From: a bacterium
Lineage (GTDB): Bacteria; Cyanobacteriota; Vampirovibrionia; Gastranaerophilales; UBA9971
DNA length: 23,180 bases
Direction: 5' to 3'
NCBI GenBank assembly: GCA_037147175.1
Contig: JBAWVS010000044.1
Location: 1 to 23,180, forward strand
In this document: positions 1 through 19,941 of the stretch, in pieces
Position numbering within the stretch: position 1 is the stretch's first letter
Layout of the letters: each line of letters opens with the position of its first letter
The notes under the pieces: generated by a model
Told to the model about the DNA's origin: nothing
Database searches by the model: none
Seen by the model: only the letters and a program-made list of their open reading frames with translations
Translations under genes and position numbers: made by a program

Positions 1-318
1 TGCATAGGATAGTAACTTAAAAAAATTCTGACTGGACATCGGGGCATGATATATATTCAGGAATTTATAAAAAATGAAATCCCTATAACTATATGTACTG
101 ATAACGATACTATTTGCGGGACAAATATTTCAAAAGAATATATGCAATTTTTATTAACAGGACACGATTCATTTATGAATTGGAATGTTGTTAAACAAGC
201 TGCAAAAAACGGAATTCAAACAGCATTCATTTCTGAACCGGATAAAGCAGACGCTTTGAACATATTTGATGACAGAACCAGAAAAATTGAAAAATTGATT
301 AAAGAATACAGTAAATAA
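1..318 (+). pseudogene. Adenosine deaminase-family C-terminal fragment (decayed)
   Basis: The readable part (first ATG at 46, 90 residues) resembles the C-terminal end of adenosine/AMP deaminase-type amidohydrolases. A segment like 'IPITICTDND' stands where the family has its metal-binding 'PVTINTDDP', followed by 'GTNISKEY', which matches the usual 'SGTxLTxEY'. Upstream, the frame is open only back to a TAA at 13-15. A neighbouring frame encodes 'SNLKK' (11-25), which fits the family's 'CPxSNxxLTG' stretch if one base is missing in the A-run at about 19-25. All three frames meet a stop within the first 18 bases, so this looks like a frameshifted remnant rather than an intact gene entering the window. 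The second Asp of the TDD motif is Asn here (T18-D19-N20), so activity would be doubtful anyway. A free-standing 90-residue protein is the less likely alternative. Confidence 0.55.
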
Positions 319-1694: not shown

Positions 1695-1799
1695 GACACA
1701 TAGCGACAAATTCTCCTATATACACTATAACATGTATATAGGAGAATTTGAGTGTTGAAACTTAGTTTCTCTTATTTTTTAAAATTGCTGGACTTATAG
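1695..1799 (+). promoter_or_regulatory. Hairpin burying an SD, with a micro-ORF after it
   Basis: A perfect 18-bp stem (1707-1724 with 1733-1750, 8-nt loop) contains AGGAG in its 3' arm, so the SD is paired when the RNA folds. A GTG at 1752 then opens a 15-codon frame ending in TAG at 1797-1799 ('VLKLSFSYFLKLLDL'). Upstream is GACACATA (1695-1702). The arrangement closely parallels the structure at 7905-7977. It may be a translational switch, an attenuator or a recombination site. No protein is demonstrated. Confidence 0.4.
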
Positions 1800-3044: not shown

Positions 3045-3833
3045 ATGGACAAAGATAAAGAAAATAATGAAATACAAAAAGCAATGCAGCCGTTCGTAGA
3101 ATTTAGAAAGGCTGTAAGTGTTTTTGATTGGCTGCCAAAGCTTAATAATATTTTTAATCCGAGTAGCTTAAATCAATTTCAGGCTTTTAACGAGGTTAAT
3201 AAAAATCTTGCAGCCGGCTATGAGTTGACTAAAAATTTTCAAAGGATAACCGATTCAATTGATAAAATATATAAAATTATTGAAGCTGTTCAAAAAGAAT
3301 TAGCTGAGCGAAATATTGATATAGAAATAATCGCGGAGCTGGAAATATCAGAATTGGTCAAATTGTATTCTTTATCCGGCAAATCAAGTCTCAGCTTTAC
3401 AGATATTCTGGAAGACAGCTTGAAACTCTTTGGCAATGTCACATATGAGCAAGTTGTAAAATATTTGGAAATTTTAAGCAGCCGGAAAGATCAAATAATA
3501 AAAAATGAGCCGAAATTCATAAATTTTGACGATATTTCTAATGAAGATTTGGAATTCTCACAAAAATACACTGAAAGCCAAGTTGTAAAGAAGTTAAAAG
3601 AATATGCAAAAGGCGAAATAAAACTGAGAGAAGAAGAAAAAACTCTTTTAAGGTACCTGAAGAAAAATAAATTTTTATCAAATAAAGAATTGGCACAAAG
3701 GATGAAGTACAGTAAAAGAGGCATAGAGGAAATATGTGCAAAGATTCGCCGCAAGTTTGATTTGGATTTTATTGAACCTAAAAATACTAAACGGCATTTG
3801 TTAATAGCTTTAGCCCAAAATATTCAACTTTAA
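3045..3833 (+). CDS. Protein with C-terminal LuxR-like helix-turn-helix
   Basis: The product is 262 residues. The C-terminal part (about 192-255) reads like a GerE/LuxR DNA-binding domain: 'REEEKTLLRYL', then 'SNKELAQRMKYSKRGIEE' as the helix-turn-helix, then 'KIRRKFDLD', matching the family pattern 'LTxREkEvL…SnkEIAxxL…vxxHxxnIxrKLgv'. The N-terminal 190 residues are helical, charged and unfamiliar, with no receiver or PAS motif. It is probably a transcription regulator, perhaps of the downstream element. ATG 3045 has no clear SD. The frame stays open upstream to 2976 and, across the excised insertion sequence, back to a stop at 1763-1765, with no ATG in that stretch. A longer ancestral N-terminus is therefore possible. 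The target is unknown. Confidence 0.65.
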   Translation: MDKDKENNEIQKAMQPFVEFRKAVSVFDWLPKLNNIFNPSSLNQFQAFNEVNKNLAAGYELTKNFQRITDSIDKIYKIIEAVQKELAERNIDIEIIAELEISELVKLYSLSGKSSLSFTDILEDSLKLFGNVTYEQVVKYLEILSSRKDQIIKNEPKFINFDDISNEDLEFSQKYTESQVVKKLKEYAKGEIKLREEEKTLLRYLKKNKFLSNKELAQRMKYSKRGIEEICAKIRRKFDLDFIEPKNTKRHLLIALAQNIQL

Positions 3834-3871: not shown

Positions 3872-3917
3872 TTTAAGCCCCAAACTGTGTGGTTATCCAC
3901 ATAACTTGGGGCTTAAA
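3872..3917 (+). promoter_or_regulatory. Long hairpin with perfect DnaA-box-like core
   Basis: Twelve-bp arms, TTTAAGCCCCAA (3872-3883) and TTGGGGCTTAAA (3906-3917), enclose a second stem TGTGG/CCACA with loop TTAT. The inner strand contains TTATCCACA (3893-3901), identical to the consensus DnaA box. It lies between the helix-turn-helix gene and the methyltransferase. It may end transcription of the former, or bind DnaA or another palindrome-binding factor. Confidence 0.5.
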
Positions 3918-4127
3918 ATTTGCTATTCTTAAATATAAGAAAGTGAAAAGCCAGAGTTGTGTTTCTGCAATAACCATGAGGTATAAGTCTATGAATATGA
4001 CCTATACTGTGTGGTTATCCACATGATTTTGGATGTAAAATCGCTCATAATAGAAATATTCAGAAATAAAAAATGAGTTCAGTTCCGTAAGAATCAGGAG
4101 GCAGAAGTTTATGAATACCAACTTGGT
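3884..4127 (+). repeat. Diverged tandem duplication (two ~121-bp units) before the methyltransferase
   Basis: Unit 1 begins at 3884 and unit 2 at 4006, each with the identical 19-mer ACTGTGTGGTTATCCACAT. Further into each unit, aligned blocks recur: 'TT-GG…AAAAT…GCT', then 'GAGG…AAGT-TATGAATA'. The ATG in unit 2 is the methyltransferase start (4111). The equivalent ATG in unit 1 (3991), also 9 nt after a GAGG, opens only an 11-codon frame. The upstream unit therefore looks like a duplicated copy of the gene's own leader and start. Confidence 0.6.
3991..4026 (+). CDS. Possible 11-residue leader peptide
   Basis: The frame encodes 'MNMTYTVWLST' and stops. It has a GAGG SD 9 nt before the ATG and sits in the duplicated leader of the methyltransferase. 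Its last codons are formed by the DnaA-box palindrome. It may be a real leader ORF or a by-product of the duplication. Confidence 0.25.
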   Translation: MNMTYTVWLST

Positions 4128-5433
4128 TGTAGAATACGTCAACGCTTCAGAAATCAAACCTTACAAGTCAAATCCCAAAATTCACAAAAACAAGCAAATT
4201 CAGCAGATAGTGAATTCCATTTCTGAGTTCAGGTTCAACAATCCCATTCTGATTGATGAAAACAACGTGATTATCGCAGGGCACGGAAGATTATTGGCTG
4301 CCAATCACCTGAACATGCAGCAAATTCCTGTGATTAAACTCTCGCATCTTTCCGATGCTCAGAAAAAAGCTTATAGAATAGCTGATAATAAGTTGACCGA
4401 AAACGGTGAATGGGATTTTGACCTGTTAAAAATCGAGTTTGAAGACTTAAGCCATCTTGAACTTGATTTTAATCTGGACATAACAGGTTTTGATACTGCT
4501 GATATTGACGTTATGCTTGATGATACACTCACCCGCAAAGAAGTTAAGCTTGATGAAAAAGCCAATGCCGTTCCGTTTATCTCTGCAAATGAAATAGTTT
4601 CTCAGCCGGGCGACATCTGGCAATTAGGCAAACACATGATAATCTGCGGCAATTCTTTAGAAAAAGAAACTTATACTAAGCTTTTTGGTAGCGAAAAAGC
4701 GAATATGATTTTTACAGACCCGCCGTATAACGTCAAAGTCGACGGACATGTCTGCGGATTAGGTAAAATCAAACATAAAGAATTTTACATGGCATCAGGA
4801 GAGATGTCAGAAGAAGAATTCCAAAATTTTCTGTCCGGAAGTTTCAACCTGCTGAAAGAATTCTCAAAAGACGGTTCTCTGCACTATATCTGTATGGACT
4901 GGCGGCACATTAAAGAAATAATTAATGCCGGAAGTATTTATGATGAATTTAAGAACCTCTGCGTTTGGAATAAAGACAACGGCGGAATGGGATCTTTATA
5001 CAGGTCAAAGCATGAGCTGATTTTTATCTTTAAAAATGGCAAACAATCTCACATAAATAATGTTGAACTTGGCTCGCACGGCAGATACAGGACAAATGTC
5101 TGGGATTATCCCGGGGCAAATTCTTTCGGCAGAGACAAAAACAATCTTAAATTTCACCCGACCGTCAAACCCGTTGAAATGGTCAAAGACGCTATTTTAG
5201 ATGTTACAGCCCGGAATGATATTGTACTGGATGCCTTTTTAGGTTCAGGTACAACTTTAATAGCGGCGGAAAAATCCGGCAGAGTTTGCTACGGCATAGA
5301 ACTTGAAGCTCTCTACATTGACACAACAATCCGCCGATGGGAAAGCTTAACCGGTTCTTCTGCCCTAAATTTATCTTCAGGCAAAACTTACAGGGAATTA
5401 TCGGAGGAAAAACAAAATGCCAAAGAAAACTAA
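4111..5433 (+). CDS. ParB-domain / DNA adenine- or cytosine-N4-type methyltransferase fusion
   Basis: This 440-residue protein fuses two domains. Residues about 8-95 form a ParB/Spo0J N-terminal-like domain ('EIKPYKSNPK…NPILIDENNVIIAGHGR'). From about 165 it is an amino-DNA methyltransferase, which transfers methyl from S-adenosylmethionine to a base amino group. The catalytic DPPY (203-206) comes before the SAM-binding FLGSG (376-380), the order of the beta class. HPTVKP (349-354) is also typical. No partner nuclease is adjacent, so it is likely a solitary, element-borne methylase of the kind found next to phage terminases. SD AGGAGG (4096-4101) supports ATG 4111. Its end overlaps the next gene by 17 bp, implying translational coupling. 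The methylated sequence cannot be read from the protein. Confidence 0.9.
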   Translation: MNTNLVVEYVNASEIKPYKSNPKIHKNKQIQQIVNSISEFRFNNPILIDENNVIIAGHGRLLAANHLNMQQIPVIKLSHLSDAQKKAYRIADNKLTENGEWDFDLLKIEFEDLSHLELDFNLDITGFDTADIDVMLDDTLTRKEVKLDEKANAVPFISANEIVSQPGDIWQLGKHMIICGNSLEKETYTKLFGSEKANMIFTDPPYNVKVDGHVCGLGKIKHKEFYMASGEMSEEEFQNFLSGSFNLLKEFSKDGSLHYICMDWRHIKEIINAGSIYDEFKNLCVWNKDNGGMGSLYRSKHELIFIFKNGKQSHINNVELGSHGRYRTNVWDYPGANSFGRDKNNLKFHPTVKPVEMVKDAILDVTARNDIVLDAFLGSGTTLIAAEKSGRVCYGIELEALYIDTTIRRWESLTGSSALNLSSGKTYRELSEEKQNAKEN

Positions 5434-5845
5434 AAATTCAGAAAATTCCGACAATTACGAAGTTGGTTACAAGAAACCTCCAAAAGATTCACAATTCAAA
5501 CCCGGGGAGTCCGGTAATAAAAAAGGCAGGCCCAAAGACAGCAAAAACACTTATGCAATGTTAAACGAAGTTTTAGTGCAAAAAATCAGCATAAAAGAAA
5601 ACGGCAGGGATTTAAGAATCCCCAAAAAACTGGCAATGATTATGCAGCTTGTAAATAAAGCTGTTAAAGGAGATGTAAAAGCCATAAATTCGCTATTGCC
5701 ACATATGTTGATGGCTGATGCGAAAGAAGAAGATAAAAACAAGATTCTGGCATCCATTAGCCAAGATGACCGGGACATAATCACAAATTATTTAAAAAAT
5801 ATTTCTGATTTTGACGGAACAGAAGAGGTAAACAACAATGATTAA
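5417..5845 (+). CDS. DUF5681 domain protein, terminase-associated
   Basis: The product has 142 residues. Residues about 14-42 carry the DUF5681 signature 'VGYKKPP…SQFKPGESGNKKGRPK…SKN', a basic Gly-rich stretch likely to contact DNA. The rest is helical, with 'AIKSLLPH'-like spacing and an acidic C-terminus. From prior knowledge, this domain commonly sits between a ParB-methyltransferase and a phage terminase large subunit, exactly as here, so a small-terminase-like DNA-recognition role is a reasonable inference, but not shown. GGAGG at 5403-5407 precedes ATG 5417. The gene overlaps the methyltransferase by 17 bp and the terminase by 8 bp. Confidence 0.8.
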   Translation: MPKKTKNSENSDNYEVGYKKPPKDSQFKPGESGNKKGRPKDSKNTYAMLNEVLVQKISIKENGRDLRIPKKLAMIMQLVNKAVKGDVKAINSLLPHMLMADAKEEDKNKILASISQDDRDIITNYLKNISDFDGTEEVNNND

Positions 5846-7367
5846 TGATAATAAAGCTTTATTAAATTCCATCCTTCGAATTAACTTTAAATCCTTTGTA
5901 GAAAAGGTTTTTAAAGAAGTTTCCCCGAATGCTCAATATCTTGACAACTGGCATATTGAAGTAATTTGCCATGAACTTATGGATCTGCTGGAAAACCGAG
6001 AAAACCGCCTGATAATTAACATTCCGCCACGGTATATGAAATCAATAATCTGCTCCATCGCATTTCCGGCATTTATCTTAGGGCATAATCCCAAAGCTTC
6101 CGTTATTGTTGTCAGCTACGCCGATGAACTCGCTTCAAAACTTGCGCTTGATTGCAAAAAAGTTATGGAAAGCGGTTGGTACCAAGAACTTTTTCCTGAT
6201 ACAAAATTATCAAAGAAATCCGTAAATGACTTTGAAACAATAAAAGGCGGGTGCCGGTATGCAACTTCAATTAACGGAACACTTACAGGAAGAGGTGCAG
6301 ATTACATTATTATCGATGACCCGATGAAACCGATGGATGCATACTCGGATTTATTACGGGATAAAACAAATGATTGGTACGGAAATACTTTGTACTCAAG
6401 GCTTAATAACAAGAAAGACGGGAAAATAATTGTTGTTATGCAAAGACTTCACGAAGAAGACCTCACAGGTTACCTGCTGGAAACAGACCCGAATTTTAGA
6501 CATATTAAAATCTCTGCTATCGCTGAAGTTGATGAATGCTGGATGGCTATAGACAGAATTACCGGCTTAGAGAAAAGATTTTACAGAAAGCAAAACGACC
6601 CGCTGCATCCTGAAAGGGAAGATTTAGCGAAATTATATCAGGCAAAAGAATATATGGGCGAGTATAACTTCGCCGGGCAGTACCAGCAAAACCCTGCACC
6701 ACGCGAAGGAGGTGTAATTAAAAAGAAATGGCTTCAGTATTACAGCATAAATGAGCTGTTTAATGCTATTGAACGTGAAGAAATCAAGGTTAAATGCATT
6801 ATTCAATCCTGGGATACAGCTAATAAAATTGCTCAGCATAATGATTATTCAGTCTGTATAACTATACTTAGGGATGAAAAAGACAGGAATTATGTGCTGG
6901 ATGTTTACAGGGAAAAGCTGGAGTTCCCTTTCCTGATCAAAAAAATTGCACAAATGCATAACGATGCAAAAGAGAAGTATAAGCACAGAATAGAGGTTTT
7001 GATTGAAGATCAGGCTTCCGGCACAAGCCTGATTCAAACACTAAAGCAGGATTTCAAGATTTACCCGAAAGGCATCAAGCCGGAATATGACAAGGAAACC
7101 AGACTGATTTCCGTTTCAAACTTAATAGAGAATGGCAACTGCCTGTTTCCTGACGACAAGCCAAATTGGTGGCTTGATTTTGAGCAGGAAATCTTGAGAT
7201 TCCCGAAATCAAAACATGATGACCAGTGCGACGCTCTAAGCCAAGCACTAAACGAGAAAGTATACGGATCCTCTGAATTTGAATATCTTTCTCGCCCCAG
7301 ATCCAAAACTGCAACAGACAGGCTTTTCGAAGGTTATTACACGGCACCTGACTGGGATTTAATGTAG
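5838..7367 (+). CDS. terL: Phage terminase large subunit
   Basis: This 509-residue DNA-packaging motor and nuclease has both expected halves. ATPase: Walker A variant 'PPRYMKS' (63-69), 'VVVSYADELASKL' (90-102), Walker B 'YIIIDD' (156-161), and 'MQRLHEEDLTGYLL' (201-214), the coupling segment. RNase H-like nuclease: 'SWDTANK…NDYSV' (Asp325), 'VLIEDQASG' (Glu390/Asp391) and 'HDDQCDALSQAL' (460-471). It belongs to the group with the TIGR01630-type C-terminal domain. The Gly of the usual GKS is Met, a departure from the classical P-loop. Length and motifs indicate an intact gene. It overlaps DUF5681 by 8 bp. No portal, protease, capsid or tail gene follows, so in this element it may act with a helper phage or as a nuclease. 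Confidence 0.92.
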   Translation: MINDNKALLNSILRINFKSFVEKVFKEVSPNAQYLDNWHIEVICHELMDLLENRENRLIINIPPRYMKSIICSIAFPAFILGHNPKASVIVVSYADELASKLALDCKKVMESGWYQELFPDTKLSKKSVNDFETIKGGCRYATSINGTLTGRGADYIIIDDPMKPMDAYSDLLRDKTNDWYGNTLYSRLNNKKDGKIIVVMQRLHEEDLTGYLLETDPNFRHIKISAIAEVDECWMAIDRITGLEKRFYRKQNDPLHPEREDLAKLYQAKEYMGEYNFAGQYQQNPAPREGGVIKKKWLQYYSINELFNAIEREEIKVKCIIQSWDTANKIAQHNDYSVCITILRDEKDRNYVLDVYREKLEFPFLIKKIAQMHNDAKEKYKHRIEVLIEDQASGTSLIQTLKQDFKIYPKGIKPEYDKETRLISVSNLIENGNCLFPDDKPNWWLDFEQEILRFPKSKHDDQCDALSQALNEKVYGSSEFEYLSRPRSKTATDRLFEGYYTAPDWDLM

Positions 7368-7386
7368 CAAATTGGAGGTTAAAAAT

Positions 7387-7449
7387 GTGAAAAAATCAAA
7401 AATTTACAGGTTACATTTACAAAAAGTTCAAAAAGGAGGCAAATTATGA
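7387..7449 (+). CDS. 20-residue basic micro-ORF coupled to next gene
   Basis: GGAGG at 7374-7378 lies 8 nt before a GTG at 7387. The frame encodes 20 residues, mostly Lys, Gln, Leu and Gly, and its TGA overlaps the ATG at 7446 (ATGA), a classic coupling arrangement. An ATG-TGA start-stop pair sits one base out of register at 7385-7390. It may be a leader that controls translation of the next gene rather than a functional peptide. Confidence 0.35.
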   Translation: MKKSKIYRLHLQKVQKGGKL

Positions 7450-7892
7450 AAGAAATTACAATTCGCGAATTTAACCCCTGTAGATGCTTTAAGAGCCATG
7501 AGGATGCTAGAAATTGGCTTTTAAAAAACATTTACAGGTTAGAAGAACTCATTCATTCTGAAATCAAAGAACCTAAATATCTTGATGACGTCCCTGAGTT
7601 TATACGACCTGATATTTACGGAAAAATAAGGGGTTCTCTTGACTTATTGGTGGTGAGTATAAATCTTGATAAAGAAATCACCAACGATGATCTCAAAAAA
7701 TTTCTTGATACTGTAGCTTTTAACGACGCGTCATTAGCAATTTGGGTGCTGACAGATATTGATGAAAGACTGCAATGTATGCTTGAGTGGATAAGTCAAA
7801 AAATGGAGCCGAAAGTGGAGTTTTTAATACTGAAAATGTCTGCTTTCCGGATAGAAAATTCAGGACCGGTTCTTAGTTTAGATAGAATGTAG
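7446..7892 (+). CDS. PD-(D/E)XK nuclease-like protein, degenerate
   Basis: The product has 148 residues. Its second half follows the N-terminal nuclease-like region of DUF4268-type proteins: 'SLDLLVVSINLDKEI…DLKKFLDTVA' resembles 'DIvgedxxxxviIENKLextdhdxLGkLltYa', and 'ASLAIWVLTDIDERLQCMLEWISQK…VEFLILKMSAFRIENSGPVLSL' resembles the conserved 'axxviWIaxxfxxxHxxALxWLNexxxxxxxFfxvExxxxrIgdSxpAPxf'. The Asp of the active site may be Asp66, but the E-x-K position is Ser-Ile-Asn, so catalysis is probably lost. The DUF4268 domain that usually follows is absent. A near-perfect SD (AAGGAGG, 7433-7439) drives ATG 7446. Lying between terminase and recombinase, it may be a DNA-binding or regulatory derivative. 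Family placement is by pattern memory. Confidence 0.55.
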   Translation: MKEITIREFNPCRCFKSHEDARNWLLKNIYRLEELIHSEIKEPKYLDDVPEFIRPDIYGKIRGSLDLLVVSINLDKEITNDDLKKFLDTVAFNDASLAIWVLTDIDERLQCMLEWISQKMEPKVEFLILKMSAFRIENSGPVLSLDRM

Positions 7893-7904
7893 GATTAACA
7901 TATC

Positions 7905-7974
7905 GACACATATTGCCACAGAACTCCTTATGCCCGCTAACATCATTACGATTAGCAGGTATAAGGAGTTTTTT
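7905..7974 (+). promoter_or_regulatory. Hairpin burying an SD (switch or terminator)
   Basis: Arms 7922-7931 and 7961-7970 (AACTCCTTAT / ATAAGGAGTT) pair perfectly. A G-U pair and seven further pairs broken by one C-A mismatch continue the stem to an 11-nt loop (7941-7951). The 3' arm contains AAGGAG, the SD of the micro-ORF at 7975. The stem is followed by six T's, so it could also be an intrinsic terminator for the upstream genes. GACACATA at 7905-7912 and the CTCCT arm match the structure at 1695-1750. Confidence 0.5.
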
Positions 7975-8031
7975 ATGACTAAAATTTATTCAAAGACTAT
8001 GCTTCAATGTATTGTCAACGGAGAAATTTAA
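7975..8031 (+). CDS. 18-residue micro-ORF
   Basis: ATG 7975 lies 6 nt after AAGGAG and encodes 'MTKIYSKTMLQCIVNGEI' before TAA at 8029-8031. Its SD is locked in the preceding stem. No homologue is recognised. It may be a leader peptide controlling the DUF2924-recombinase pair. The remaining 78 bp before the next gene show nothing else clear. Confidence 0.3.
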   Translation: MTKIYSKTMLQCIVNGEI

Positions 8032-8109
8032 ATATGGCAAACACTTGATTTTAGTGAGCGAAAGAGTGATGAATGCTGTTGTCAATTAAGTATAGAAAGG
8101 ACAACAGCT

Positions 8110-8553
8110 GTGACGGAAACGATAGAAGAGTTACAATGCTTATCAAGAGAAGAATTGATCAAAAAATGGAAGAAAATTTTCAAAACAAATTCTCCGCAGC
8201 ATGCAAGAAAAGAATTCCTGATAAAACATATTTTATGGGAGCTTAATGCAAAAGAAAAAGGCGGTTATTCTTCTCAAACTAAAAAACAGCTTGATAAACT
8301 TGCAGAGAAATTTGCTAAAAAGCAGGAAGTTAATGAAAATGATATTAAAGAATCCTGTAAACAAAGTTCTGTTTTGGAAATAAAAGCAGGAACAAAGCTC
8401 ATAAGAGAATATAAAGGGGAGAAACACGAAGTAATTTCTATTGATAAAGGTTTTAAATACAAAGATAAGCCATATAAAAGCCTTTCAGCCATAGCAAATG
8501 AAATAACAGGCACAAGATGGAACGGTAAAGTTTTCTTCGGAGTAAAAAAATGA
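8110..8553 (+). CDS. DUF2924 domain protein
   Basis: The product has 147 residues. The family pattern is clear: an N-terminal helical part ('EELIKKWKKIF…LIKHILWELNAKEKGGYSSQTKKQLDKL') and the C-terminal hallmark 'IKAGTKLIREYKGEKHEVISIDKGFKYKDKPYKSLSAIA', ending 'ITGTRWNGKVFFGVKK'. DUF2924 genes almost always sit immediately before a large serine recombinase in mobile modules, best known from Alphaproteobacteria, and the same order holds here with a 4-bp overlap (8550-8553). The biochemical role is unknown. Co-occurrence suggests an accessory factor for recombination or its direction. The start is GTG 8110, with AAAGGA about 9 nt upstream. Confidence 0.85.
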   Translation: MTETIEELQCLSREELIKKWKKIFKTNSPQHARKEFLIKHILWELNAKEKGGYSSQTKKQLDKLAEKFAKKQEVNENDIKESCKQSSVLEIKAGTKLIREYKGEKHEVISIDKGFKYKDKPYKSLSAIANEITGTRWNGKVFFGVKK

Positions 8554-10247
8554 AAGAAATAAAGAAAAAAACTATTCGCTGTGCAATTTACACAAGAAAA
8601 TCCTCAGAAGAAGGCTTGGAACAGGATTTTAACTCCCTTGATGCACAAAGAGAAGCCTGCGAATCATATATTAAATCCCAGCAGCACGAAGGCTGGGTTC
8701 TTGTTGATAAGCAGTATAACGACGGTGGTATTTCGGGTGGAACTTTGGAAAGACCCGCACTTAAAGAACTTTTTAAAGATATTGAAACAGGCGAAATTGA
8801 TACAGTTGTAGTTTACAAGATAGACAGGCTTACCCGCTCATTAATGGATTTTTCTAAAATTGTTGAATTATTTGATAAAAAATCAGTTTCATTTGTTTCA
8901 ATTACCCAGCAGTTCAATACTACAACCAGCATGGGAAGGTTGACTCTCAATATTCTTCTATCTTTCGCCCAATTTGAAAGAGAAGTTTCAGGCGAAAGAA
9001 CAAGAGACAAAATAGCCGCTTCAAAGAAAAAAGGTCTCTGGATGAGCGGAAAATCTCCCATCGGTTATGAAATAAAAGATAAAAAACTCGTTCCTGACAA
9101 AAAATACTTGCCGACTGTTGAAATAATTTTTGAAAAATATCTTGAATTAAAAAGCGTACCGGAGTTAAAAAAATATCTTGAAGAAAATAATATTGAAACC
9201 AGAACAGAGAAATATTTCAGTAAAGGTAATTTGTATCATATTCTGCAAAACAAAACATACATCGGTTTAATAACGCACAAAGATAATATTTATAACGGCG
9301 AGCATGATGGAATTATTGATAAATATACTTTTCGAAAAACTCAGGAACTCTTATCAAAAAACAGAATCAGGCAAAAAAGTTCAATAAACTCCACAAATCC
9401 TTCACTGCTGGCAGGCAAAATTTTTGATGACAAAGATAACTACATGAGCCCAAGCCACAGCAATAAAAAAGGCAAAAGATACAGATACTATGTCAGTCAG
9501 GCTATTATTCAATCCAGAAAACAAGAAGCCGGTTCAGTTTCAAAAATCCCTGCCGGAGAAATTGAAACCGTTGTTGCAGAAGAAATAAAAACTTTTCTTT
9601 CTAATCCTAAAAATATTCAGCACTATATTTTGGACTTTGATATACACAAGCAAAAAATAATATTATCAAAAGTTTCAAAACTTGAATTAAAAAATAATTT
9701 TATTCGGACAATACTATCAAAAGTAGTTTTATACAAAGAAAAAGTTGAAATTATTCTCTGTAAAGAACAACTGTTAAAAGCATTAGAATCCATAACTTAT
9801 GATAAACCTTTCCCTGAAGAATTAAAGGAAGAAACAAAAGAACCGATATTTATAACTCAGCAAATTCGCATATCGGCAACAGCTAATAAAGGAAGTGTTT
9901 TAATAATCTCAGATTCTAAAAAAACAGAAATTAATATTAATCCTCAATTAATAAAAGCAATAGCCAAAAGTTATTATTGGAACGACCTTTTACTAACAGG
10001 AGAAGCTAAAAGCAGTATTGATATACAAAAAATAGAAAAGCTTGGGAGCAAAACCTACATAAATAATATTCTTGAACTAAGATTTCTTGCCGCTGATATT
10101 GTTGATAGAATTTTAAACGGAACTCAGCCAAGGGATTTGACAGTAGGAAAATTATTCAAAATCAGAACTTTAGATTGGGAGGAACAAAGAAGGATATTGC
10201 AATTTGAAAAGTCACCACGAAAAATGCAGACAGAGAATTTTGCTTAA
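8550..10247 (+). CDS. Large serine recombinase (integrase)
   Basis: This 565-residue site-specific recombinase probably integrates and excises the module. The N-terminal resolvase domain (about 9-160) has 'YTRKSS' with nucleophile Ser18, 'YNDGGISGGTLERPAL', 'VVYKIDRLTRS' and 'AQFEREVSGERTRDKI', which holds the active-site Arg region. A recombinase domain follows (about 170-275: 'GLWMSGKSPIGYEI…NLYHILQNKTYIG'). The zinc-ribbon position reads 'LLAGKIFDDKDNYMSPSH…KRYRYYVSQA', without cysteines, as in the DUF2924-linked subfamily. The C-terminal 200 residues are family-specific. The frame is intact. It overlaps DUF2924 by 4 bp and ends 130 bp before tRNA-Gln. Confidence 0.92.
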   Translation: MKEIKKKTIRCAIYTRKSSEEGLEQDFNSLDAQREACESYIKSQQHEGWVLVDKQYNDGGISGGTLERPALKELFKDIETGEIDTVVVYKIDRLTRSLMDFSKIVELFDKKSVSFVSITQQFNTTTSMGRLTLNILLSFAQFEREVSGERTRDKIAASKKKGLWMSGKSPIGYEIKDKKLVPDKKYLPTVEIIFEKYLELKSVPELKKYLEENNIETRTEKYFSKGNLYHILQNKTYIGLITHKDNIYNGEHDGIIDKYTFRKTQELLSKNRIRQKSSINSTNPSLLAGKIFDDKDNYMSPSHSNKKGKRYRYYVSQAIIQSRKQEAGSVSKIPAGEIETVVAEEIKTFLSNPKNIQHYILDFDIHKQKIILSKVSKLELKNNFIRTILSKVVLYKEKVEIILCKEQLLKALESITYDKPFPEELKEETKEPIFITQQIRISATANKGSVLIISDSKKTEININPQLIKAIAKSYYWNDLLLTGEAKSSIDIQKIEKLGSKTYINNILELRFLAADIVDRILNGTQPRDLTVGKLFKIRTLDWEEQRRILQFEKSPRKMQTENFA

Positions 10248-10305
10248 ATTCTCCATAAAATCAGCAACAACCTCTCCCAACTCAATTCTCTTTATCGAAA
10301 TCGCA

Positions 10306-10337
10306 ACAAAAAATCCCGCTAACAGCGGGGTTTTTTG
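10306..10337. terminator. Bidirectional intrinsic terminator
   Basis: Stem CCCGCT (10315-10320) / AGCGGG (10324-10329) with loop AAC is flanked by an A-run on the left and six T's on the right. It can end the recombinase transcript on the plus strand and the tRNA-Gln transcript on the minus strand. Confidence 0.85.
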
Positions 10338-10377
10338 TAATAAAAAGAAACTTGTTCTCTTTCTATGGACTAAGATA

Positions 10378-10449
10378 CTGGGGCGAAAGGATTCGAACCT
10401 CCGAATGGCGGGACCAGAACCCGCAGCCTTACCACTTGGCGACGCCCCA
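10378..10449 (-). tRNA. tRNA-Gln (anticodon CUG)
   Basis: The minus strand folds into a full cloverleaf of 72 nt. The acceptor TGGGGCG pairs with CGCCCCA, the D-arm begins GCCAAGTGGTAAGGC, the anticodon stem is GCGGG/CCCGC around the loop TTCTGGT, and the T-arm is GGAGG-TTCGAAT-CCTTT (with two G-U pairs). It reads codon CAG. The U1-A72 opening pair is characteristic of bacterial tRNA-Gln. CCA is not encoded. It lies between the recombinase and tex, but its 3' end is not repeated elsewhere in the window. Confidence 0.95.
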
Positions 10450-10541
10450 ACAATATCTTTTATTATAATTGAAATATCTTTTTTTTCAAAATAACTGTTA
10501 CATTATATGATTGGGCTTTTTTTCGTAGTTATTTGAGCAGT

Positions 10542-14694: not shown

Positions 14695-16809
14695 GTGCAA
14701 GTAATTAGTAATCGATTTAAAAATAACAGTCCAAATCTATATAGAATCGGGATGACAAAAAAACCGATTGAACCTGAAAATATTATTAAAGCTCATGAGT
14801 TTAATTTTAATAAAAATTCAATTTCGTTTTACGGATATACCGTTGAACCTTCTCGTCGACTGAATAAATCAAATTACGCAATAGCTGAGTATATAAACGA
14901 AATTAATAAGGCGCGGACTTTATATGGAGATCAGGCAATGATTGAGCTTGCAATGGGCAATCCTGATATAATTCCGCCTCAAGGTGCAACGGATGCACTG
15001 AGAAAATCATCCCATGACCTATGGAGTCACAGATATAATTATCCAAAAGGAGAAGGCTCTTTCAGGGAAGGTGTTGCTTCGTGGTTAAAGAAACGATTTG
15101 ACCTTGAAATAAATCCGAATACAGAAGTGATGCTTACTTCCGGCAATTCAAACGGCATTTCTACTATTCTTTCGGCTTATACCGAAAGAGGGGATAAGAT
15201 TTTAGTACCTAACCCGGGTTATGCCTTGTATGATGATCTTGTAGCCAGACACGATCTTAAAAAAGTATCAATGAATTTAGACCCTAAAAATGGTTATCTC
15301 CCTGATTTTGATAAAATCAAGAAAGCAGATATTAAGGGTGTAAAGTGTATGATTATTAATTATCCGCATAATCCTACTGGAAGTTTTGCTTCTCTTGAAT
15401 TTTATGAAAAAGCCGTAAAATTTGCCAAAGATAATAATATATTTATAATTCATGATTTTGATAATAGCGAAATCACTCATCATGGAGATAAACCGATTGG
15501 TATACTTCAGGCAGAAGGAGCAAAAGACGTAGCTTTCGAGGTGCATACTTTGAGCAAAGCTCATAATATGCCCGGTTTGAGAGTTGGTTTTGTTGTCAGC
15601 AACAAAGAATTTATTGATAATACCTATAAAGCAAAATTGCTTTCAAATAACAGCGTTTATACGGCTATTCAAGCCGCTGCAACCGCTGCTTTGGAAGATA
15701 AAGAAGGCTATATTGAAAAAGTTAATCAGGAACACAGAAACAGGAAAAATATAGCAATAGAACGGCTTAAAAAACTTGGCAGCGATGCACAACCCACGAA
15801 AGGAACTTATTATTTATGGGTAAAAGTGCCGGGAGGCTTTTCGTCAGATGAATTTTACAAATATGTTCTGCATAAAGCTCATGTTGCGATTACTCCGGGA
15901 ACTGTTTTTGGTGAAAAAGGCGAAGGGTTTGTAAGGTTTGTTATGTCAGCAAATACCGAGGATATTAACAAAGCTTTTGATAATATTGAAAAAGCCGGAA
16001 TCAGGTTTGATAAAAAGAAAAAAGATTTGCCAAAAGAAGAGCAGGAAGAAATTCAAAAAATTGCAAAAGGAGATATAAATATAATTCCAAAAGCGGTAAG
16101 AGATCTTGAAAATTATAAAGAAATACTATTTGAAAAACATGAAACGCTTAAAGAGAGATTGAACGGCAAGTCTGCTAATTTGCAAAGATTTTTGCCTGAT
16201 AAAAATAGTATTGAAAGTCTTCCTGTTAATATACTTAAACCATTGCAAAAAGTGTATTTGCACGATTCAAGCTCTGTTAAGCCTTGTTTAGGTGAAATTA
16301 GGGAAATATCTCCATACAGCAATCCAAGCTATTATGAAAATATAAAAGATTGCATTAAAAATACATGGATTCCGTATGCTAAAAAACATAACCCGAATGC
16401 AGAAATATTAGAGGCATACAAAAATGGAAAATTTTATGAGGATGCAACTTATGTAACTGTATGGGCTAATGGAGAACTTCAAGCTATAGGTAACGTTGAG
16501 GCTCAAAACGATGGCTGTTTATGGGGCAGGGGTCTAAATACAGCTCCCTGGAATCAAGGAGAGACACCTAAAATTAAAGGCGCAGGCACGGCTATCTTAA
16601 TGAGGCGGTTAGCCCTTTGCCTTGAAACAGGGAATTCTGCGTTTAAAATAGCGACAAAGAATAAACAGCTTATAGACTATTATCAGAGATTGGGTATGCA
16701 AAAAAATGAGATTAAAAGTTTTTCCGGCGTAGATTATCAGGTTTTAAGCATTGATAAAGAAGGAATGAAAAAAGCCTTGAAAACATATCAGAAATACCTG
16801 AGTTATTAA
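14695..16809 (+). CDS. Aminotransferase class I/II fused to a GNAT-like acetyltransferase domain
   Basis: The product has 704 residues, nearly twice a normal aminotransferase. After a 75-residue lead with 'SISFYGY' (42-48), residues about 80-440 are a PLP-dependent class I/II enzyme: 'YPKGEGSFREGVASWL', 'INYPHNPTG' (Asn226), Asp254 in 'IIHDFDNSE', Schiff-base Lys288 in 'LSKAHNMPGLRVGF' and the carboxylate-binding Arg414 in 'GFVRFVMS'. The expected Tyr of the usual 'DxAY' is missing. A Lys-rich linker (about 440-510) leads to a C-terminal domain with GNAT features: the acetyl-CoA loop-like 'KIKGAGTAIL' (626-635) and 'YYQRLGM' (662-668). One chain may thus both transaminate and acylate an amino compound. 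The start is GTG 14695 with AAGGA 11 nt before. The substrate is unknown, though the aminotransferase half resembles LL-diaminopimelate aminotransferase-like enzymes. Confidence 0.8.
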   Translation: MQVISNRFKNNSPNLYRIGMTKKPIEPENIIKAHEFNFNKNSISFYGYTVEPSRRLNKSNYAIAEYINEINKARTLYGDQAMIELAMGNPDIIPPQGATDALRKSSHDLWSHRYNYPKGEGSFREGVASWLKKRFDLEINPNTEVMLTSGNSNGISTILSAYTERGDKILVPNPGYALYDDLVARHDLKKVSMNLDPKNGYLPDFDKIKKADIKGVKCMIINYPHNPTGSFASLEFYEKAVKFAKDNNIFIIHDFDNSEITHHGDKPIGILQAEGAKDVAFEVHTLSKAHNMPGLRVGFVVSNKEFIDNTYKAKLLSNNSVYTAIQAAATAALEDKEGYIEKVNQEHRNRKNIAIERLKKLGSDAQPTKGTYYLWVKVPGGFSSDEFYKYVLHKAHVAITPGTVFGEKGEGFVRFVMSANTEDINKAFDNIEKAGIRFDKKKKDLPKEEQEEIQKIAKGDINIIPKAVRDLENYKEILFEKHETLKERLNGKSANLQRFLPDKNSIESLPVNILKPLQKVYLHDSSSVKPCLGEIREISPYSNPSYYENIKDCIKNTWIPYAKKHNPNAEILEAYKNGKFYEDATYVTVWANGELQAIGNVEAQNDGCLWGRGLNTAPWNQGETPKIKGAGTAILMRRLALCLETGNSAFKIATKNKQLIDYYQRLGMQKNEIKSFSGVDYQVLSIDKEGMKKALKTYQKYLSY

Positions 16810-16925
16810 CAGGATTTATTGTACGATTTGCGAAATTTTGTAATTAAAGTTATTGCATAACAAACTTGTATAAATATTAAGATTTTTTTTAAAAGCACTA
16901 TCTTTTTCAAAAATTATATATTAAT

Positions 16926-16957
16926 ATAGTTATATAAAGATATACTTATATAGCTAT
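16926..16957. promoter_or_regulatory. Probable ArsR-type operator
   Basis: The imperfect inverted repeat ATAGTTATATAA (16926-16937) and TTATATAGCTAT (16946-16957) matches at 11 of 12 positions with an 8-bp spacer. It lies 19 bp before the repressor ATG in very AT-rich DNA. Spacing and symmetry fit a site bound by an ArsR/SmtB dimer that represses its own operon. Confidence 0.6.
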
Positions 16958-16975
16958 AAACAAGGTGAAGTGAAG

Positions 16976-17266
16976 ATGAAAAGCAAGTGCGAAGAAATGG
17001 CAGAAATATTTAAAGCATTATCACATCCGATAAGGCTGAAAATTGTATGCGGACTTATTCAGAAAAAAGAGTGCAATGTAACAAAGATGGTTACTCATTT
17101 AAATATGCCTCAGCCTAATGTATCCCAGCATATAAATATATTGAAAAATGCTGACATCATTGAAGGATACCGAAATGGTAACGAAATTTGCTACAAAGTA
17201 GTGAATGAGGATGTAGAAAAAATGATCCAAGCTCTGGAACTTGAAACAGCGGAGATAAAAGAATGA
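16976..17266 (+). CDS. ArsR/SmtB-family repressor
   Basis: The product is a 96-residue winged-helix regulator. The pattern is typical: 'IFKALSHPIRLKIVCGLIQK' (11-30), recognition region 'LNMPQPNVSQHINILKNADII' (42-62) and wing 'GYRNGNEICYKVV' (64-76). It probably represses the downstream ferredoxin-efflux operon until an inducer binds. The classical arsenic-binding ELCVCDL motif is not present; that helix reads 'ECNVTKM' with one Cys. Cysteines at 5, 25, 33 and 72 could sense a metal, metalloid or sulfur/oxidant signal. I prefer ATG 16976 (AAGGTG about 9 nt upstream) to the GTG at 16970, which sits too close to that SD. Its stop overlaps the next start (ATGA). Confidence 0.88.
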   Translation: MKSKCEEMAEIFKALSHPIRLKIVCGLIQKKECNVTKMVTHLNMPQPNVSQHINILKNADIIEGYRNGNEICYKVVNEDVEKMIQALELETAEIKE

Positions 17267-17406
17267 TAATAATTAATAAAAACAGATGTCCTGTTAAAGC
17301 TATTTCTCAGAAAGTTTATAAACAGCCTGTTATAAATAATAAAGTTTGTGTCGAGTGTAAAAAATGTATAAATTTTTGTCCGATGCGTTCAATAAAAGAG
17401 ATTTAA
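17263..17406 (+). CDS. Mini 4Fe-4S ferredoxin-like protein (47 residues)
   Basis: The ATG at 17263 overlaps the repressor stop, and the frame runs 47 codons to TAA 17404-17406. It contains 'CVECKKCINFCP' (Cys29, 32, 35, 39), the CxxCxxCxxxCP iron-sulfur signature, and an earlier 'NRCPVKAI' (Cys9), which looks like the second half of a ferredoxin motif. Five cysteines are enough for one [4Fe-4S] cluster (29, 32, 35 plus 9 or 39). The size is below that of normal 55-60-residue bacterial ferredoxins, so it is a trimmed version. Its position between a Cys-containing repressor and efflux genes suggests redox sensing or a metal or cluster delivery role. That is inference only. Confidence 0.75.
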   Translation: MIIINKNRCPVKAISQKVYKQPVINNKVCVECKKCINFCPMRSIKEI

Positions 17407-17426
17407 GAAAGGATTTGGAGTTGAAA

Positions 17427-18788
17427 ATGCGTAAATATCTTGTATTTCTGATATTTTTCTTAATGATAAATCCTGCATTTGCGCAGGGAGATTTAAAGCA
17501 GGAGATAAAACCTTCTGACTCCTTATCAATGAAAGAAGCAATCAGCTGCGCTCTATTAAATAATAACGAATTAAAAGCATTGAGAAATTCTCTCTCCGCG
17601 CAACAAAGAGAAATAGGCATCGCAAAAAGCTATTTGATGCCCAGAGTCAAATTTGAAGAAATGTTTGTAAATACAAATAATCCTGCACTTGATTTTGCTC
17701 TCAGAATAAATCAGAGAAGGTTTACATCAGGCGACTTAAACAACGCACCGGGTTCATTTAACAAGCCTGATGCCATAAATAACTTTCTTACATCAATAAC
17801 TTTAGAGCAGCCGATTTATTACAGAAAATCTTTTGTAGGGGTTGATATGGCAAAAAAAGAATATTCAGCGCAGACTTATGCTTTCTTCAGAAAACAGGAA
17901 GAAGTTGCTTTTAACGTGTCAAAAACTTATTTATCTGCGATTACGGCTCAAGAATATGTTAAAGTCGCGCAAAAAGCCGTTTTTGACTCAAAAGAACACT
18001 TGAGAATTGCTCAGGTAAGATTTAAAACAGGATTAGGGCTGTATTCCGATGTTTTAAGAACTTCTACGGCAGTAACAGAGGCGCAGCAGAAGCTTATTTC
18101 TGCAAACAAGAATTTGAGTCTTTCCAAAAGATCTCTGGGTTTGCTTATGGGAAAACAAACTTCTGTTGATATAAATTCAGTAGTTCCTCAATTAAGTATA
18201 AAAAATATTGATTATGCAAATACAGCTATAGCTTCAAGAAATGACGTTAAATCACTTGAGGAAAAACTTGAAAACGCCAGAAACGGGATTAAATTTGCCG
18301 AATCTGATTATTTTCCGACAGTCGCAGGATTTGGTTCTTACCAGCTTTATGACAGCAGGGCTCCTTTTGCGGCGGAAGGGCATAACTATGTTGCAGGTGC
18401 GGCTGTTAAATGGGAAGTTTTTGACGGTTTGAAATCTAAAAATAAAAAATTACAGGCAAAAGACAGGGTTGCGGAAGCACAGGAATATCTGAAAGGGTTT
18501 AAAAATCAAATAACTTACAAGATTTATGAAGCCTGCCAGAATGTAGAAGAAGCGCAAAAAAATCTTGAGCTTGCAAATTCAGCCTTAATAACTGCCGAAG
18601 AAGGCAAAAGGCTTGTTTTGAAAAGATGGGAAAGTTCTTTGTCTCCTATGGTTGATTTGCTTGATGCCCAGATTAACCTTGATAAAGCAAGAGCTGACGT
18701 TGTTAAAACCACTAACGATTATAAAGTTGCACTAATAAGCCTTTCTTTTGAAAGTGGGATTCTGTTCAAAGATTTAGGAATTGAGTAA
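17427..18788 (+). CDS. TolC-like outer-membrane efflux protein
   Basis: The product has 453 residues from ATG 17427, chosen because GGAG (17417-17420) precedes it and it begins with a clear Sec signal peptide, 'MRKYLVFLIFFLMINPAFAQ', cleaved after 'AFA'. An upstream in-frame ATG at 17364 lies inside the ferredoxin gene and would bury the signal. The mature part shows two OEP repeats of long helices and strands: 'MKEAISCALLNNNELKAL', 'TYLSAITAQEYVKVAQKAV', 'GLYSDVLRTSTAVTEAQQKL', then 'RNDVKSLEEKLENARNGIKFAESDYFPTV' (given here by its ends, about 285-315) and 'SPMVDLLDAQINLDKARADV'. It forms the trimeric exit channel for the adaptor and pump encoded next. Confidence 0.9.
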   Translation: MRKYLVFLIFFLMINPAFAQGDLKQEIKPSDSLSMKEAISCALLNNNELKALRNSLSAQQREIGIAKSYLMPRVKFEEMFVNTNNPALDFALRINQRRFTSGDLNNAPGSFNKPDAINNFLTSITLEQPIYYRKSFVGVDMAKKEYSAQTYAFFRKQEEVAFNVSKTYLSAITAQEYVKVAQKAVFDSKEHLRIAQVRFKTGLGLYSDVLRTSTAVTEAQQKLISANKNLSLSKRSLGLLMGKQTSVDINSVVPQLSIKNIDYANTAIASRNDVKSLEEKLENARNGIKFAESDYFPTVAGFGSYQLYDSRAPFAAEGHNYVAGAAVKWEVFDGLKSKNKKLQAKDRVAEAQEYLKGFKNQITYKIYEACQNVEEAQKNLELANSALITAEEGKRLVLKRWESSLSPMVDLLDAQINLDKARADVVKTTNDYKVALISLSFESGILFKDLGIE

Positions 18789-18802
18789 AAAAGGAAATAA
18801 TT

Positions 18803-19885
18803 ATGAAAAAAATAATACTTTCATTGATAATATTATCTGCATTAACAGCAGGATGCACATCTAATAAAGAAAAAGCTCCTGAAAAACCTCAAATTTCAGG
18901 GGTAGAGATGAAAACTATAAATAAGTCTTCTGTTGATGATTTTTATGAAACTTCTGCGACTGTCAAATCGAAAATTTCCAGCGTGGTTTCCAGCATGATA
19001 ATGGGGCGTGTTACTTCTTTGAGAGTTAAAGAAGGCGATAACGTTAGAGCGGGACAGCTTTTGTTAACTATTGACAACAGAGAAGCTTCTCAAAAAGCTA
19101 TGGGGGCTCAAGCAGGAGTCAACGGGGCTATGAAAGGTGCAGAAGAAGCAAATCAAAACAGGCAATTAACAAATAAAACATATCAAAGATATGAAAAACT
19201 TTATAAAGAAAATGTCCTGACAAAACAGGAATTTGACCAGATTTCTACTCAAAAGCAACTTGCCGAACTTGAATACCAGAAAGCAATGCAGGGAGTGAAT
19301 CAGGCAAAAGCGGGTCTTGGAGAAGTCGGAGTTTATCAGAGTTATTCAAGAGTTACAGCTCCTGTTTCGGGGATTGTGGTTCAAAAAAACATAGATTTAG
19401 GAAGTATGGCATCACCGGGACAGCCTTTATTAACTGTTGAAGCCCCTTCAAGTCTTGAACTTGTTGCTGATATTAACGAAAGTATGATTGATAAAATAAA
19501 AATCGGTATTCCCGTTTATCTTGAGTCCGAGGGAAAAAAAGAGGTTAAAAGCAAAATTACTGCTATAATCCCTAGAATTGACCCGATGACAAGAACTTTT
19601 ACAATTAAGGTTGCATTTTCTGGCTTAAATTCCGGCAGTTATGCAAAAATTAAAATCCCTGTCGCTAAAATACAAGCAATTACCGTTCCGCAAAATTCAG
19701 TTGTTCAAAAAGGTCAACTTACAGGGGTTTATACGGTTGATGAAAAAAACATTATTTCTTACAGGTTGATAAGAACAGGTAAGACTTTCGGGAATGATGT
19801 CGAAGTCCTCTCCGGCTTGAGTTCGGGAGATAAAGTTATAATCAAAGGCTTTGAAAAAGCTGTTGACGGTGGAGAAGTTAAATAA
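18803..19885 (+). CDS. RND periplasmic adaptor lipoprotein (HlyD/MFP family)
   Basis: The product has 360 residues. It starts with a lipoprotein signal, 'MKKIILSLIILSALTAGC', with lipobox LTAGC and lipidated Cys18, so it is anchored to a membrane. The barrel-sandwich halves are 'GRVTSLRVKEGDNVRAGQLLLTID' (split by the hairpin) and 'TAPVSGIVVQKNIDLGSMASPGQPL'. Between them is a helical hairpin (about 90-165, 'YEKLYKENVLTKQEFDQI'). A beta-barrel and a membrane-proximal domain follow ('IPRIDPMTRTFTIKV', 'GSYAKIKIPV', 'VPQNSVVQKGQLTGVYTV'). It couples the inner-membrane pump to the outer-membrane channel. AAGGAAA 8 nt before the ATG and 14 bp after the previous stop place it in the same operon. 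Confidence 0.93.
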   Translation: MKKIILSLIILSALTAGCTSNKEKAPEKPQISGVEMKTINKSSVDDFYETSATVKSKISSVVSSMIMGRVTSLRVKEGDNVRAGQLLLTIDNREASQKAMGAQAGVNGAMKGAEEANQNRQLTNKTYQRYEKLYKENVLTKQEFDQISTQKQLAELEYQKAMQGVNQAKAGLGEVGVYQSYSRVTAPVSGIVVQKNIDLGSMASPGQPLLTVEAPSSLELVADINESMIDKIKIGIPVYLESEGKKEVKSKITAIIPRIDPMTRTFTIKVAFSGLNSGSYAKIKIPVAKIQAITVPQNSVVQKGQLTGVYTVDEKNIISYRLIRTGKTFGNDVEVLSGLSSGDKVIIKGFEKAVDGGEVK

Positions 19886-19891
19886 ACATTT

Positions 19892-19910
19892 GTCATTGCG
19901 AGGAGCGAAA
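19892..19910. repeat. Fragment of a 'GTCATTGCGAGGA' palindromic repeat
   Basis: GTCATTGCGAGGAGCGAAA resembles the start of a dispersed intergenic repeat seen in several bacterial genomes ('GTCATTGCGAGGAgCGAAgcgacgaagCAAT'). The complementary right half is missing here. It sits in the 56-bp gap between adaptor and pump genes. Recognised from memory; no second copy lies in the window. Confidence 0.45.
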
Positions 19911-19941
19911 ACCGGAAGAGTAATAAAAAAAGGAAAAAATC

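Follow-up and report, generated by a model that had tools for sequence, protein, structure and literature searches.

The question raised by this locus is why a bacterial chromosome should maintain a phage DNA-packaging motor where phage structural genes are absent. The window analyzed here spans the whole of contig C44 (23,180 bp) from a 99.4%-complete, 2.66-Mb Gastranaerophilales genome, and it encodes a terminase, a DNA methyltransferase, and a recombinase within a few kilobases. The block is an integrated island with its own integrase and an incomplete set of virion genes, as in phage satellites. The reading that we favor, and to which we give an even chance, is that it belongs to a cross-phylum family of integrative islands whose packaging-type genes are under purifying selection and that would be packaged as helper-dependent satellites.

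ORF calling combined with Pfam, PHROGs, and NCBIfam recovered, intact and in place, all five genes named in the original prediction. On the forward strand these are a ParB-like/N6-N4 DNA methyltransferase (positions 4111 to 5433; PF01555, 5e-35; PHROG_498, 1e-126), a DUF5681 protein that is a putative small terminase subunit (5417 to 5845; PF18932, 2e-21; PHROG_26239), a terminase large subunit (TerL) with motor ATPase and nuclease (5838 to 7367; PHROG_38, 2e-114; TIGR01630; Terminase_6C), a DUF2924 protein that is a recombinase partner and putative accessory or directionality factor (8110 to 8553; PF11149, 1e-40), and a large serine recombinase (8550 to 10247; PF00239 [Resolvase]; PF07508 [Recombinase]; PHROG_95 integrase, 1e-98). 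The predicted overlaps of 17, 8, and 4 bp are exact, and no portal, protease, capsid, or tail gene was found in the whole contig. The description of the recombinase as Cys-less needs amending, as it contains three Cys residues, but the zinc-ribbon CxxC is indeed absent. The prediction had not included a conserved forward-strand ORF without an assigned function (7446 to 7892), a helix-turn-helix (HTH) protein gene, a tRNA-Gln gene (10377 to 10450), or a 60-bp site at 10232 to 10291. A search of the openly readable literature for this gene combination found nothing.

The HTH protein (3045 to 3833, forward strand; weak Pfam HTH_24 match at the C terminus) is a probable regulator and presumably part of the element. 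It occupies the slot of ∼370- to 400-amino-acid LuxR-type HTH proteins upstream of the methyltransferase on contig C16 of the same genome and at loci L030 and L033, and its N-terminal part is unrelated to these counterparts. Between this gene and the methyltransferase, a repeat search identified an inverted repeat around TGTGGTTATCCACA (3872 to 3917), with a second core copy at 3996 to 4041 (78% over 46 nucleotides). This stretch (3872 to 4041) contains two copies of ACTGTGTGGTTATCCACAT with the DnaA-box-like TTATCCACA, which, in the core of the first repeat, matches the DnaA-box consensus.

The arrangement is not due to chance, because an 81% identical copy exists elsewhere in the genome and further genera and phyla also have the block. 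The second copy of the TerL gene lies on contig C16, where positions 15285 to 21403 align to window positions 4128 to 10199 at 80.6%, and this copy ends beside a tRNA-Ala(ggc) gene. The ORF at 7446, seen only in this genome's two copies, is 89% identical between them. Pairwise dN/dS values for the window versus C16 are 0.07 for the methyltransferase, 0.09 for DUF5681, 0.07 for TerL, 0.13 for the 7446 ORF, 0.09 for DUF2924, and 0.14 for the recombinase; all six genes are under purifying selection. The methyltransferase-DUF5681-TerL triad has been kept intact with no portal or capsid gene nearby and is not a prophage remnant.

A profile scan of GTDB genomes returned 39 TerL loci, distributed across Gastranaerophilales, Eremiobacterota (four in one genome), Elusimicrobia, Acidobacteria, and Alphaproteobacteria. 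Among the 38 loci with a TerL ORF, the DNA examined contained the full triad at 32, DUF2924 at 22, and the recombinase at 21. TerL matches occur in 23 of 192 genomes of the order; the inspected order loci with a TerL identity of ∼40% or more have the triad genes and no portal. At L247 to L249, where TerL is about 30 to 38% identical, the triad is missing, and the gene order around L249 is prophage-like. One genome, G042, carries both a capsid-less island (contig C2; L039) and a divergent TerL of 30 to 33% identity in a prophage-like order (contig C1; L249), possibly a helper/satellite pair.

The absence of structural genes extends across the family. A portal probe matched 0 of the 39 genome loci versus 61 of 80 viral contigs, and neither PF04860 nor PF05065, the portal and capsid expected of a temperate prophage, was detected in the window's own 99.4%-complete genome. 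PHROG and Pfam scans of 98 neighbors gave no portal or capsid among the best 25 families listed, a listing that leaves out weaker single matches; the same scans applied to real phages gave portal matches at once. In a TerL tree built by a quick method and including some long branches, capsid-less loci grouped apart from nearly all portal-bearing phages, the exceptions being L138 and L149. Three near-identical loci (L107, L109, and L110) have one 6.6-kb unit in common, and a 3.7-kb cargo block that begins or ends exactly at the left edge of this unit is carried by some of them and lacking in others. We looked for adjacent structural genes and for indications that the block is one end of an ordinary prophage and found neither; the original idea of a capsid-less mobile element is supported. 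The gene pairs had been described as known from Alphaproteobacteria, and related blocks do occur there and in other phyla, but the closest are not only alphaproteobacterial: TerL identity is 62 to 66% to Eremiobacterota and Elusimicrobia versus 38 to 60% to Alphaproteobacteria and relatives. Based on the tree and these identities, transfer between phyla, in one direction or the other, is likely. Some contigs of metagenome-assembled genomes may be misbinned, e.g., L108 (“Bacilli”), with a TerL identical to an alphaproteobacterial one.

The DUF2924/recombinase pair is an integration module that is also found in real phages (Wolbachia phage WO and AcaML1) and with quite different cargo. The catalytic motif YTRKSSEEG is intact, and CxxC is absent from the searched stretch of 42 of the 43 recombinase family members tested. 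DUF2924 lies directly 5' of the recombinase at most loci and in phage WO, and it accompanies a related recombinase in 17 of 60 relatives; a fold search with DUF2924 gave no significant PDB match. The final 16 nucleotides of the recombinase gene overlap the 60-bp inverted site (AGAGAATTT-N43-AATTCTCT; 10232 to 10291), a probable attachment-site arm whose motif and spacing are common to relatives. It is followed by a hairpin with flanking A/T runs that resembles a bidirectional terminator (10306 to 10338; detected by self-complementarity) and by tRNA-Gln(ctg) (10377 to 10450, reverse strand; ARAGORN and Rfam), the integration target, whose 3' end faces the recombinase.

At least 15 relative loci have the same motif, 59 or 60 bp in total, at their recombinase end, and there the order is again site, hairpin (kept in nearly all relatives), and tRNA or transfer-messenger RNA (tmRNA) 3' end, with identical polarity. 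Targets in relatives include tRNA-Gln, -Ala, -Ser, -Val, and -Ile and tmRNA; the same block is found, for example, at tRNA-Val (L033), tmRNA (L039 and L243), and tRNA-Ser (alphaproteobacterial and Eremiobacterota loci). By eye, Alphaproteobacteria and Eremiobacterota have another inverted site (TGACTTTG..CAAAGTCA) at the corresponding position of the right end. Shuffled sequence yielded 0.2 site matches per 72 kb at ≤2 mismatches, and the exact pattern was found genome-wide in 8 of 21 genomes, versus 0 of 21 for a reversed-pattern control. A tRNA or tmRNA gene lies 80 to 290 bp away at 11 of the 14 loci from this genome-wide search; of the remaining three, L259 comes from a short contig, and the DNA examined at L262 and L264 contains no such gene. 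Integration of the island at tRNA/tmRNA 3' ends by the recombinase with DUF2924 is thus well supported by sequence comparison. Exact 59/60-bp sites also lie by tRNA/tmRNA genes in G010, G016, G002, and G004 (L251, L252, L256, L257, and L261), where DUF2924 was undetected; these are candidate orphan sites or passengers.

At the opposite end, a left-end motif, ACAGGGAATTTACAGGGA, is common to Gastranaerophilales, Eremiobacterota, and Alphaproteobacteria. It is exact in L029, L103, L114, and L117 and has one mismatch in L119, L123, and L134, and a shuffle control gave 0.33 matches at ≤3 mismatches; a tRNA-end-like TGGCGG lies upstream of it in L103, L114, and L117. In the window, neither of these motifs identifies a left end, the left end of its own element was not located, and no convincing direct repeats bound both ends. 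Candidates were set aside: GGGGC at 3903 to 3911 or at 2275 is too weak as a left attachment core, and the copy at 2275 is inside a transposase gene; window positions 1 to 53, common to contig C30, look like a repeat end at a contig break rather than the end of an element. A look for an empty site beside Tex in relatives found that the tRNA-Gln/Tex order is not conserved there. An IS701/IS4-like transposase gene (1903 to 2967, within 1815 to 2982) has imperfect inverted ends near 1817 to 1838 and 2959 to 2980 and is single copy in the genome; it may have obscured the element's left end. An 18-bp inverted repeat without mismatches (CAAATTCTCCTATATACA/TGTATATAGGAGAATTTG; 8-bp loop) lies at window positions 1707 to 1750, and at 46 to 318 an ORF resembling, by eye, the C-terminal part of adenosine deaminase is truncated at a possible repeat border at the contig end.

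Tandem units were seen at several loci. In L042, two sites lie 2.65 kb apart and both precede a tRNA-Ser 3' end, of which the inner copy is decayed; L087 has junctions at 11287, 15716, and 19111, a T-arm-like left end, and two last units apparently without a recombinase; and in L029 a partial copy lies 6.3 kb leftward. Units thus accrete at tRNA ends. The apparently recombinase-less units before the tRNA gene (L087, 11287 to 19111; L042, 14565 to 17274) are candidate passengers mobilized in trans, and passengers of this kind probably exist. In the window's own genome, positions 1 to 393 of contig C30 (L260) begin with the 53 bases of window positions 1 to 53 and continue with a 94% match to 10114 to 10456, spanning the truncated end of a recombinase, the 60-bp site, and a further tRNA-Gln; it resembles a second, decayed element that a repeat has interrupted.

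The key residues of the terminase are conserved. The Walker B motif (IIDDP), D326, E390, D462, and D465 do not vary across the aligned sequences, so the residues of both the motor ATPase and the RNase H-type nuclease are present. The conserved variant P-loop, PPRYMKS, is a lineage trait rather than decay, because the portal-bearing relative L138 has it too. A PDB sequence search with the TerL profile returned nothing at 1e-3. The TerS-like assignment of DUF5681 is putative and made by position, directly upstream of TerL with the 8-bp overlap; its fold search gave no significant PDB match, and no relation to the TerS of phage JD001 was detectable. Published proteomics of Salmonella phage STGO-35-1 virions reported a DUF5681 protein (PMC8954984), consistent with a role in packaging.

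In the phage collection, the window's DUF5681 matched a single record (E value of ≤1e-3): MT839917, a human-fecal scaffold of 5.4 kb from Mexico, labeled “Bacteriophage sp.,” that also encodes a methyltransferase, TerL, and recombinase. Its source fields fit a Mexican virome study that used 0.22-μm filtration, chloroform, and DNase on particles and deposited scaffolds of this sort (PMC8361208). The scaffold probably derives from such a DNase-treated particle virome and lends weak support to packaging in particles; cellular DNA can contaminate viromes.

Together, these observations suggest a life cycle. The zinc-ribbon-less recombinase, with DUF2924, inserts the island at a tRNA/tmRNA 3' end, the 60-bp inverted site and hairpin lie at the recombinase-side junction, and units accrete in tandem, those lacking a recombinase probably moving in trans. 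Once the island has excised and replicated, its TerS-like protein and TerL could recognize island DNA, and the motor might then dock it to the portal of a coresident helper phage, giving satellite packaging; the methyltransferase may mark or protect island DNA, and the family's anti-phage cargo would pay the host. The use of a helper's portal and capsid seems to us an evenly balanced proposition. The broader view, that tRNA-targeting serine-recombinase islands have long kept a TerS-like gene, TerL, and a methyltransferase without portal or capsid, taking particles from unrelated helpers and trading anti-phage cargo, falls slightly short of an even bet. A terminase is generally considered to require a portal of its own. 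Against the satellite reading, TerL needs a matching portal, and so old a motor lineage without a portal of its own is unusual.

Anti-phage systems are abundant in the cargo, defined here as genes near the islands, whose placement inside the element is not fixed at every locus. Genes for ABC-3C, a Mokosh-like helicase-nuclease, and a PHP-SMC protein lie upstream of the triad in C16; L033 carries GmrSD (HEC-05); and other loci carry type I and II restriction enzymes, HamA, DRT3, AbiH, PDDEXK proteins, and helicases. The main rival is a defense island in which the methyltransferase, DUF5681, and TerL make up an anti-phage module, the methyltransferase marking self DNA and the TerL motor-nuclease cleaving foreign DNA or disrupting phage packaging, with spread by the recombinase plus passive DNA uptake or generalized transduction. 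A methyltransferase beside an ATP-driven nuclease recalls restriction-modification, the loci sit among restriction systems, GmrSD, HamA, DRT3, AbiH, and ABC-3C, no portal or capsid partner is nearby, and the triad also occurs at loci without a recombinase in the DNA examined. However, PADLOC has no model for this TerL, and methyltransferase-(TerS position)-TerL is the gene order of phage packaging operons. Defense cargo is equally typical of satellites, known examples such as PICMI likewise carrying it (PMC10803314). We regard a defense role as a serious but less probable explanation.

That TerL is maintained without capsid genes and that no relaxase was identified would also suit a self-mobilizing element using TerL as a motor or nuclease for processing or replicating its own DNA, with no virus particle; we know of no precedent for terminase-driven transfer without a particle, however, and consider this improbable. 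A decayed prophage, with integrase and terminase left once structural genes were lost, would explain why every part has phage homologs but is very unlikely given the same compact order in many genomes and phyla, the intact ORFs, dN/dS values of 0.05 to 0.22, the clustering of capsid-less TerL sequences in the tree, and a portal at 0 of 39 genome loci.

An intact motor lineage spanning several phyla without a portal would represent either a new satellite class whose packaging motor is portable or an additional, defensive function of terminases. The 60-bp site, left-end motif, and tRNA target can serve as handles in searching Gastranaerophilales, a group with poorly known mobile elements, for such islands, and they allow the choice between packaging and defense to be tested directly.

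Several known systems resemble the island in part. TerL is about 36% identical, over 93 to 95% of its length, to that of Jedunavirus-type phages (Klebsiella JD001 and MEW1), but theirs precedes a portal or capsid operon, and no relation between their TerS and DUF5681 was detectable. In Wolbachia phage WO and Acidithiobacillus phage AcaML1, a DUF2924-type protein is encoded directly upstream of a related recombinase (36 to 47% identical), but these are phage genomes with structural genes (P2-like tail genes in WO). SCC elements (CcrA/B/C) have in common with the island a large serine recombinase, tandem accretion, recombinase-less passengers, and defense cargo, and CcrB is the best NCBIfam match of the window's recombinase, below the cutoff; unlike SCC, the island is at a tRNA/tmRNA 3' end rather than at rlmH, has a terminase, and lacks the zinc ribbon. 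Marine tycheposons are alike in tRNA-gene insertion, seen here as well, in cargo islands, and in possible particle transfer, but they use tyrosine recombinases, whereas the island uses a serine recombinase with DUF2924. Phage satellites (PICI, cf-PICI, P4-like, PLE, and PICMI) are likewise small integrated islands with an integrase and defense cargo, some families carrying packaging genes (cf-PICI; terS in PICI) (PMC10803314, PMC11389934). In contrast to these, the island combines TerL and a TerS-like gene with no capsid gene, a serine recombinase acting at tRNA/tmRNA genes, and a distribution that crosses phyla.
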